Of a stretch of 64,000 nt of DNA, positions 15,477 through 59,839 are shown piece after piece. Every line of letters begins with the position of its first letter. Position 1 is the first letter of the stretch. A program made the translations under genes and the position numbers. This DNA is from an uncultured Cryomorphaceae bacterium (GTDB lineage: Bacteria; Bacteroidota; Bacteroidia; Flavobacteriales; Schleiferiaceae): NCBI GenBank assembly GCA_913009655.1, contig CAJVWI010000010.1, forward strand, positions 1-64,000. The letters run 5' to 3'. The notes under the pieces were generated by a model. The model saw only the letters and a list, made by a program, of their open reading frames with translations. It did not search any database and was not told the DNA's origin.

Positions 15477-16862
15477 CTACAAGTGAATAACTTCTCCATA
15501 AGCAACAGCAGTTGCCTCCATGACTGCTTCTGACATTGTAGGATGAGGATGAACAGTCTTTAAAAGCTCCATTCCTGTAGTTTCTAGTTTACGAACTGCG
15601 ACGATCTCGGCTATCATTTCTGTAACGTTCGATCCAATCATATGAGCACCTAAAAGTTCACCATACTTAGCATCATAAATCATTTTCACAAATCCTTCTT
15701 TAGTTCCTGCAGCTGAAGCTTTTCCTGAAGCGCTAAATGGAAATTTACCAACTTTAATTTCATGACCAGCGTCTCTGGCTTGCTTTTCAGACATGCCAAC
15801 AGAAGCTACTTCCGGAGAGCAATATGTGCAGCCAGGAATGTTATTATAATCTAAAGGTTCTGGATTATGGCCAGCAATGCCCTCGACACAAATTATACCC
15901 TCTGCAGAAGCTACGTGAGCCAAAGCAGGGCCATGAACAATATCTCCAATCGCAAAATATCCAGAGGCGGTTGTTTTGTATAAACTATCAACAACAACTC
16001 GCCCATTTTCAGCCTTTATACCTAAGGCCTCTAATCCCAAATTATCTAAATTAGTGGATACACCTACTGCACTTAGAACGATATCACAATCCATATTTTG
16101 ATCACCTTTTGAATTTTTATATGATACAACACAGGCTTTTCCTGAAGTATCAACATTCGTTACTTCAGTTGAAGTTTGAATCTCTATGCCCTTCTTTTTA
16201 AATGTGCTTTCTAAAGCCTTGGAGACATCAATATCTTCATTTGGAAGAATATTTGGCAAGTATTCCATGATTGTTACTTTTGAACCCATTGCATTATAAA
16301 AATATGCAAATTCAACTCCTATTGCCCCCGAGCCAACAATTACAATTGATTTGGGTTGCTTGGGGAGATTCATTGCTTCCCGATAACCAATAATCTTCTT
16401 ACCATCCTGTTTTAGAGATGGCAACTCCCGAGAACGCGATCCTGTGGCAAGAATGATATTTTTCGCTGACAAGATTTTTGTTGAATCATCACTTTTGACT
16501 TCAACTTTCTTACCAGACAATACTTTACCATAGCCCATTATTACATCAATCTTATTTTTTTTCATCAAAAAATCAATACCCTTGCTCATTCCTTGAGCCA
16601 CGTCACGACTTCGTTTGATGACTTTATTAAAATCGTGCTTAGCATCATTTACAGTTATACCATAATCTTCAGCATGCTGAATATACTCAAAAACTTGAGC
16701 ACTTTTAATTAATGCTTTTGTAGGGATACAACCCCAATTCAAGCATACACCTCCAAGACTTTCCTTCTCTACTATTGCAGTTTTTAATCCTAGCTGACTC
16801 GCACGAATAGCAGCAACATATCCACCTGGGCCTGACCCTATAACAATAACATCGTATTCCAT
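15477..16862 (-). CDS. lpdA: Dihydrolipoyl dehydrogenase (E3)
   Basis: This flavoprotein re-oxidises dihydrolipoamide of 2-oxoacid dehydrogenase and glycine cleavage complexes with NAD. FAD motif VIGSGPGGYVAAIRA is at residues 7-21 and the redox disulfide is GGVCLNWGCIPTKALI (about 37-52). The NAD motif is IVIVGSGAIGVEFAYFYNAMG, and the dimer-interface His-Glu is in HPHPTMSEAVMEA. The 461-aa length is typical. It is plausibly the E3 partner of the E1 at 1390. It lies 20 bp downstream of ridA on the same strand. Confidence 0.95.
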   Translation of the reverse strand: MEYDVIVIGSGPGGYVAAIRASQLGLKTAIVEKESLGGVCLNWGCIPTKALIKSAQVFEYIQHAEDYGITVNDAKHDFNKVIKRSRDVAQGMSKGIDFLMKKNKIDVIMGYGKVLSGKKVEVKSDDSTKILSAKNIILATGSRSRELPSLKQDGKKIIGYREAMNLPKQPKSIVIVGSGAIGVEFAYFYNAMGSKVTIMEYLPNILPNEDIDVSKALESTFKKKGIEIQTSTEVTNVDTSGKACVVSYKNSKGDQNMDCDIVLSAVGVSTNLDNLGLEALGIKAENGRVVVDSLYKTTASGYFAIGDIVHGPALAHVASAEGIICVEGIAGHNPEPLDYNNIPGCTYCSPEVASVGMSEKQARDAGHEIKVGKFPFSASGKASAAGTKEGFVKMIYDAKYGELLGAHMIGSNVTEMIAEIVAVRKLETTGMELLKTVHPHPTMSEAVMEATAVAYGEVIHL

Positions 16863-58081: not shown

Positions 58082-59839
58082 TTAATCTATATCAAGCTGA
58101 AATTCCTTTCTAAATTCATCCAATTGCGGATTCTTCTCGAGCAAAAACTGATAACGCTCTTCTGCTGTGTATACAACCTTAGCATTGCTTGCAGAATCTT
58201 CAACGTGAATATTAATACCCAATGAGTCGTTTTTCAATTCTTTCCGCAAAGAGCTGACAAGTTCATCTCGGACTTCCTCCAAATATCTCGATTGTACTCT
58301 AGTTCCCACCGAGATGCGAATATTGAAATCTTCTTCTAGTATTGGATTAATCTGGTTTAATAAAGCATAAACGACATTGCTATTAACCATAGATTCTGCA
58401 ACTCTATCCCAGCACACCAATAAACTTTTCTGATCAAAGGGACTCAAGTTTTTTACATCTTGATCTAATTGTGAAATATTTTTTTCCATTTCAGTAGGAC
58501 TTTTAATTCCTCCCGACCTCAGTGAAAAAGCAGATTTCTTTTTAAAAGGAACCTGTTCTTCAATAACTCTAGTTTTATCTATATCTCGATCCACCTCAAT
58601 CAGAGAAATATTCTCATTGACCAACTTGATTTCAGCTTTCTGAGATTTAATTGGGACTTCTTTTATTTCTAAATCACTTTTTTCGTCCTCCTTATTTTTA
58701 GTAGGTGACTCAGTTATTTCTTCATTTTCAATCTTGTCTTGTTTGGAAACTTCATTTTTTTTTTTTTCTCCCACAGCCTCTGAATCTGTTAAACCTGCAA
58801 TTTCCAGCAAAGTGACTTCAACTAATAATCTGGGGCTCGAACTATCACGGTATTGAATATCACATTTTGAAAGTAATCTTAGAGCTCGACCCAAGAATTT
58901 CAAATCCATTGCACCAGATTCATGACGATATCTATCCTTAATTGAATCTGGAAGTTCCATAATATTTATAGTTTCCGAATGTTTTGCCATCAAAACATCG
59001 CGAACATGAGAAGCTAAGCCACTTACGAACAAGTTTAGGTCAAAACCAAGCTCTAAAACTGAGTTAACTTGGAGAAATATCGCTGATGCATCTGCATTCT
59101 TGAGATCATTTAAGGTCTGAAAGAAAATATCTCTATCGAGGATCTGTAAATTCTCTCTAACTAACTGATAAGTAATTTCTTCACCTTGAGAAAAAGCATT
59201 GATTCTGTCGAAGATAGAGAGTGAATCTCTTAAGGCTCCGTCTGCCTTTTCAGCAATTAAATGTAAGGCCTCTGATTCTGCCACTACTCCTTCTCTTAAA
59301 GCCACAAATTCAAGATGACTCACGATATCTTGGATGCCAATTCTTTTAAAATCAAATACTTGACACCGTGATAAGATCGTAGGCAATACTTTATGTTTTT
59401 CAGTAGTAGCTAAAATAAATATAGCATGAGCAGGAGGCTCTTCTAATGTTTTCAAAAAAGCGTTAAACGCTGCCGTCGATAACATATGAACTTCATCGAT
59501 TATGTATACCTTAAACCGTCCAATTTGGGGAGCAAATCTTACTTGATCAATAAGCTGACGGATATCATCAACTTTATTATTCGAGGCAGCATCTAGTTCA
59601 AAAATATTTAATTCGTAATTCTCTTCAGCAGCAGAATGAAGCTCATTTATCCTTTTTGCCAAAATTCTAGCACAAGAGGTTTTACCAACACCCTTAGGGC
59701 CACAAAAAAGCAGAGCCTGAGCTAAATTACCAGAAGTGACCTCATGCTCAAGAGTATCTGTCACATGAGATTGACCCACAACTGTATCAAAAGAAGATGG
59801 TCGATATTTTCGAGCAGATACTATGTAAGGTTTATCCAT
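58082..59839 (-). CDS. dnaX: DNA polymerase III subunits gamma/tau with candidate slippage site
   Basis: 585 aa clamp loader. Walker A LFCGPKGVGKTSCARIL is at 44-60, ELDAASNNKVDDIRQL at 81-96, Walker B VYIIDEVHML at 111-120, and domain III ends near LLVEVTLLEIAGL (338-350). Between residues 60 and 80 the usual four-cysteine zinc module is absent. The stretch 358-361 (EKKK) is encoded by 13 consecutive A; one extra A gives an immediate TGA and a 362-aa product. The tau-specific part (about 365-585) would bind polymerase and helicase. It starts 23 bp after the carotenoid-pathway gene on the same strand. Confidence 0.95.
   Translation of the reverse strand: MDKPYIVSARKYRPSSFDTVVGQSHVTDTLEHEVTSGNLAQALLFCGPKGVGKTSCARILAKRINELHSAAEENYELNIFELDAASNNKVDDIRQLIDQVRFAPQIGRFKVYIIDEVHMLSTAAFNAFLKTLEEPPAHAIFILATTEKHKVLPTILSRCQVFDFKRIGIQDIVSHLEFVALREGVVAESEALHLIAEKADGALRDSLSIFDRINAFSQGEEITYQLVRENLQILDRDIFFQTLNDLKNADASAIFLQVNSVLELGFDLNLFVSGLASHVRDVLMAKHSETINIMELPDSIKDRYRHESGAMDLKFLGRALRLLSKCDIQYRDSSSPRLLVEVTLLEIAGLTDSEAVGEKKKNEVSKQDKIENEEITESPTKNKEDEKSDLEIKEVPIKSQKAEIKLVNENISLIEVDRDIDKTRVIEEQVPFKKKSAFSLRSGGIKSPTEMEKNISQLDQDVKNLSPFDQKSLLVCWDRVAESMVNSNVVYALLNQINPILEEDFNIRISVGTRVQSRYLEEVRDELVSSLRKELKNDSLGINIHVEDSASNAKVVYTAEERYQFLLEKNPQLDEFRKEFQLDID
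58755..58767 (-). promoter_or_regulatory. A13 homopolymer run, candidate transcriptional slippage site in dnaX
   Basis: Thirteen T on the given strand (58755-58767) are 13 A on the dnaX coding strand, second base of codon 358 to second base of codon 362. Inserting one A turns the next codon into TGA. Deleting one A opens a 13-residue tail ending in TAA. Both give gamma-length proteins ending at the domain III boundary. Confidence 0.6.

Follow-up and report, generated by a model that had tools for sequence, protein, structure and literature searches.

In Escherichia coli, expression of dnaX involves a −1 programmed ribosomal frameshift that operates via an A_AAA_AAG heptamer, an SD-like element and a stem-loop, and the need of cells for a separate gamma subunit is a long-standing argument. 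To our knowledge, production of gamma by transcriptional slippage has been proven only in Thermus. In the accounts of PMC1088944 and PMC5009743, slippage on an A9 run in dnaX of Thermus thermophilus was demonstrated experimentally (Larsen et al. 2000), in agreement with an earlier note on the DNA studied here, which had named Thermus as a precedent. A GeneTack survey (Antonov et al. 2013, PMC3711429) found two-ORF dnaX genes in 12 genera, Chlorobium and Chloroherpeton being among those named; these 17 genes carry A7–A10 runs (A10 in nine of them), and slippage was inferred for them. The same study uses a mixed direction of the shift as a criterion for slippage over ribosomal frameshifting.

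We analyzed a 64,000-nt stretch from an uncultured Cryomorphaceae bacterium (hereafter the window), which carries a dnaX gene with the following features.

58082–59839, minus strand: dnaX (DNA polymerase III gamma/tau); the templated frame encodes 585 aa (tau), with a TIGR02397 match above cut-off and PRK14971 covering the full length
58784–59167, minus strand: clamp-loader domain III (PF12169), residues 225–352, the last domain of the predicted gamma
58755–58767, minus strand: candidate A13 slippage run (T13 on the plus strand), codons 358–362, GAA AAA AAA AAA AAT
58454–58778, minus strand: tau linker, residues 354–462, predicted to be disordered (AlphaFold2 model m7bd622c6dc82, pLDDT <50)
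58085–58432, minus strand: C-terminal tau domain, residues 470–585, missing from the predicted gamma; folded in the AlphaFold2 model and conserved in relatives
58752–58754, minus strand: TGA met with one extra A (or 3n+1) in simulated transcripts, giving a 362-aa gamma
58714–58716, minus strand: TAA met with one A fewer (or two more) in simulated transcripts, giving a 374/375-aa gamma-like product

The 13 consecutive A residues form the longest homopolymer of the window, as the earlier note had stated: they are the sole A/T run longer than 9, the next longest being five runs of 9. Across the whole 1.72-Mb assembly, fewer than 30 A/T runs reach 10 or more and just two reach 13; the assembly is a draft of 33 contigs with 90% completeness, and the length of the A13 run in it may be off by one. 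The note's placement of the run just after domain III was also borne out, the first A being the middle base of codon 358, 5–6 residues past the PF12169 match that ends at residue 352, and with helix 336–348 closing domain III in the AlphaFold2 model. The predicted low order across residues 354–462 (pLDDT below 50) would put the A13 run at the very start of the disordered tau linker. With the lysines encoded at this place and the codon usage of the gene itself, such a run has a probability of ~0.25, and the window alone therefore proves little; the case rests on conservation.

Elsewhere in the same assembly (G000), A10–A11 runs were found at C1:10971, C7:27142, C8:17734 and C9:32815 (L124, L141, L142 and L145), in each case inside a long sense-strand open frame of 398–497 codons. 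A second dnaX of the assembly, with an A11 run at 16306–16316 of contig C4, was considered as a paralogue with a run of its own and rejected. It lies in a low-GC stretch (positions 1 to ~24000; L284, L154; GC ~0.29, changing to 0.37 near 24 kb) that also holds second copies of rplI and def, and the contig is probably a chimera with the sequence of another flavobacterium. Because this sequence was probably foreign and joined in assembly, we did not use the C4 gene as within-genome evidence. Distant DnaX homologues are encoded on viral contigs.

Simulated transcripts of the window gene gave products of 585 aa with A13, 362 aa with A14, 374 aa with A12, 361 aa with A11 and 586 aa with A16, reproducing both short products read from the letters in the earlier note, namely a stop immediately after the run and 362 aa with one added A, and a TAA and 374 aa with one lost A. 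The two off-frame stops lie 0 codons (one A more) and 12.7 codons (one A fewer) past the run; the second is farther than in most relatives (median ~4 codons), which counts against slippage. We propose that the A13 tract would act as a programmed transcriptional-slippage site, on which RNA polymerase would generate dnaX mRNAs with varying numbers of A. Messages with 13 A plus or minus a multiple of three would encode full-length tau, and the remaining ones would hit a stop within 0–13 codons and yield a gamma-like clamp-loader subunit of 361–375 aa, which would retain domains I–III but have neither the linker nor the C-terminal domain of tau. From sequence we infer slippage of RNA polymerase at this site in the cell, production and use of gamma, and the ratio in which the two forms occur.

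For comparison, we gathered dnaX genes from named GTDB contigs, from genomes related to that of the window, from a phylum-wide draw and from the window's family, and scored a run where A9–A13 lay between −12 and +115 nt relative to the end of domain III. Such a run was present in 208 of 250 distinct Bacteroidota dnaX genes, a strongly positive answer to the proposal of the earlier note that relatives be inspected for a run of A10 or longer where domain III ends. The lengths were A10 in 155 genes, A9 in 30, A11 in 20, A12 in 2 and A13 in 1, with the reservation that many of the surveyed genes come from MAGs, in which homopolymer lengths are uncertain. Runs of 7–8 were nearly absent from the site in the 250-gene survey, the modal length being 10, and within the window's own family the run was kept at the domain III end in 63 genes. 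Away from the site, 311 kb of sequence from the 177 genes that had a run before the family extension contained four A runs of 9 or more and no T9. Thirty-six of these 177 loci, e.g. Hymenobacter and several classes outside Bacteroidia, have a GC content of 0.5–0.65, where the amino acids and the gene's own codon use predict a run with a probability of 0.1 on average and as low as 0.01; significance is overstated because the surveyed genes are related, although the set still spans a phylum. Among all surveyed genes, the window has the longest run; its clade carries A13, A12, A11 and A11 (L094–L097), other members of the genus have A10, and the closest relative (L095; protein 86% identical) carries A12, in frame. 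The near-identical run at the same place in most surveyed relatives thus pointed to a widespread device rather than a chance repeat.

The reading frame of the tau part downstream of the run varied among the relatives. Of 207 genes, 151 template tau in frame, 52 require an additional A and 4 require one A fewer, and on a tree of the DnaX N-terminal domains (177 genes) this state changes at least 28 times, a number that tree error may inflate. Flips were observed even inside genera: in one pair, G037 (A11) needs an extra A and G052 (A10) one A fewer; in another, G194 (A10) is in frame and G193 (A11) needs one A fewer. One-contig genomes occur among the genes needing an extra A, so that these are not merely errors of draft assembly. 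Such flips point to RNA polymerase slippage in both directions and, because slippage goes both ways, a genome may template tau in any frame.

Past the run, one frame continues for ~150–300 codons into tau and the two others stop fast. Of 207 genes, 166 (80%) have a stop in both off-frames within 6 codons and 194 within 10 codons, compared with 12% and 26%, respectively, when the downstream codons were shuffled (116 genes) and with 20% within 6 codons when synonymous codons were resampled (177 genes); these statistics treat the genes as independent, and kinship lowers the effective number. Taken separately, the frame reached with one extra A stops within 6 codons in 90% of genes (52% in the synonymous null) and the frame reached with one A fewer in 88% (40% in the synonymous null).

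The most serious alternative is that the short form is made by −1 ribosomal frameshifting of the E. coli type on the A-run, rather than by transcriptional slippage. The window run holds A_AAA_AAA in the −1 phase, and a −1 shift would reach the same TGA at 58752–58754; ribosomal slippage on this embedded heptamer could therefore contribute at A13. The A_AAA_AAG heptamer is absent, A_AAA_AAA being the only one since a T comes next after the run, and across the survey A_AAA_AAG lies in phase at the end of just 59 of 177 runs. SD-like words precede 26% of the runs compared with 10% in the control, but Bacteroidia ribosomes do not recognize SD sequences (PMC9976891). In the window, GGGAG directly adjoins the run upstream, compared with a spacing of ~10 nt for the SD-like element of the E. 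coli type. The 60 nt downstream of the window run contain no stem (MFE −0.2 kcal/mol), in contrast to −19.7 kcal/mol in the 53 nt after the heptamer of the E. coli K-12 dnaX control. Furthermore, run length is held at 9–13 though 7 would suffice, and early stops are enriched in the +1 frame too, the one reached with one A fewer, for which −1 ribosomal frameshifting has no use. Finally, the changes of tau frame go both ways; by the criterion of PMC3711429, ribosomal frameshifting would hold to a single direction. On this evidence, we regard ribosomal frameshifting as an improbable source of the short form.

Two members of the window's family, from two genera, do combine a heptamer with a hairpin. 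Both genes (L169 in G034:C1 and L171 in G022:C36) have lost the A-run; an A8 match in L169 was rejected as a run, as it is not at the site. In both, A_AAA_AAG lies in the −1 phase 17 nt past the domain III end, a zero-frame TAG follows immediately and tau is in the −1 frame. A hairpin lies a few bases farther on, at −26.5 kcal/mol in G034 (z −5) and −20.8 kcal/mol in G022 (z −1.2). The shuffle z-score is insensitive for such hairpins, the E. coli dnaX control scoring just −0.84, and we therefore relied on absolute energies and on the contrast with G022 and G034. In these two genomes, ribosomal frameshifting has apparently taken over, and gamma would be the product of the zero frame. They form a natural control, with the ribosomal signal present where the run is absent and missing from the window, where the run is present. 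The earlier note's remark that the window shows no E. coli-like A AAA AAG site with a stem is in line with this contrast, as the window has neither element and the two run-less genes have both.

It is far less probable that the run is incidental to a lysine-rich linker in an AT-rich genome and yields no programmed product. The window run taken by itself is not improbable from its amino acids and codon use; against this stand its phylum-wide position, held at GC 0.5–0.65 as well, the stops placed in both off-frames, and the split genes, which need slippage to make tau at all. Least credible of all is that the run owes its length to faulty assembly, or is a phase-variable repeat of the DNA, instead of being an RNA-level device. 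In its favor, long homopolymers are prone to instability and difficult to assemble, and the incomplete draft includes a mixed contig. Against it, A11–A13 occurs throughout the closest clade of four members, A9–A11 occurs in one-contig genomes, dnaX is a replication gene with a conserved tau part and not a surface antigen, and the slippage reading does not depend on the exact length.

An A9 or longer run was absent from the site in 42 of the 250 genes, some of which lie on truncated contigs. The run-less genes include those of gut Bacteroidales (Bacteroides sp. L026) and of several GC-rich lineages outside Bacteroidia, and in a few genes (L053, L173) the run is located deeper in the linker. Tau alone is expected in Bacteroides sp. 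L026, because its linker is open only in frame, and a replacement heptamer with a stop was not found in the Bacteroides-like lineages that have lost the run (L026, L023, L063 and other gut Bacteroidales), which may make only tau. In a 0.3-Mb AT-rich genome of the same order (G051), DnaX (L179) stops around residue 346, lacks a tau part beyond it and is apparently gamma only.

Taken together, the comparison among relatives strongly supports the slippage mechanism suggested in the earlier note, and we are confident that the A13 run of the window is a programmed slippage site giving tau and gamma and that this device, mostly as A10, is kept in most surveyed Bacteroidota. With somewhat less assurance, we consider it likely that slippage on A9–A13 is the prevailing, and probably ancient, gamma/tau route of Bacteroidota, including Chlorobia-like classes, with tau templated in any frame through ~28 flips without loss of the route, and that at least two genera within a single family have exchanged it for hairpin-stimulated ribosomal frameshifting. 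Conservation of the run across the phylum and enrichment of stops in both off-frames would place gamma under selection in Bacteroidota, and many dnaX genes of this phylum that are seemingly split or frameshifted would be intact. Chryseobacterium, Pedobacter, Hymenobacter and flavobacteria are culturable and suited to testing, and lineages without the run, such as Bacteroides-like gut genomes, offer natural controls. In the open-access papers searched, we found no report of the run as a general Bacteroidota feature, nor of the one-ORF form there.

Among known systems, the window most closely resembles Thermus dnaX as described in the sources cited above, with an A homopolymer, tau in the templated frame and nearby stops in both other frames. 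With this layout, any slip that is not a multiple of three would give gamma, owing to the stops in both off-frames. The window has each of these features (A13, i.e. at least 9; tau templated; stops in both off-frames), and its run is conserved in relatives. It differs in that the run is A13 (usually A10 in relatives), lies directly past domain III and belongs to a distant phylum, and in that tau is frequently templated out of frame among its relatives. The two-ORF genes of Antonov et al. share the A10 motif and the inference of slippage and match the 52 genes that need one more A here, whereas the window represents a one-ORF form undetectable by that screen. Beyond that work, the present analysis appears to add the one-ORF majority, the genes needing one A fewer, the stop enrichment in both off-frames and the distribution of the run, and likewise how far the run extends across the phylum, the varying frame of tau and the switch to ribosomal frameshifting inside one family. 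Compared with E. coli, the outcome would be the same, gamma and tau from one gene, but the window has no hairpin, its run consists of 13 A where E. coli has 6 A followed by G, and its relatives stop in both off-frames. The G022 and G034 genes carry a heptamer and hairpin similar to those of E. coli with the roles reversed, gamma apparently being encoded in the zero frame.
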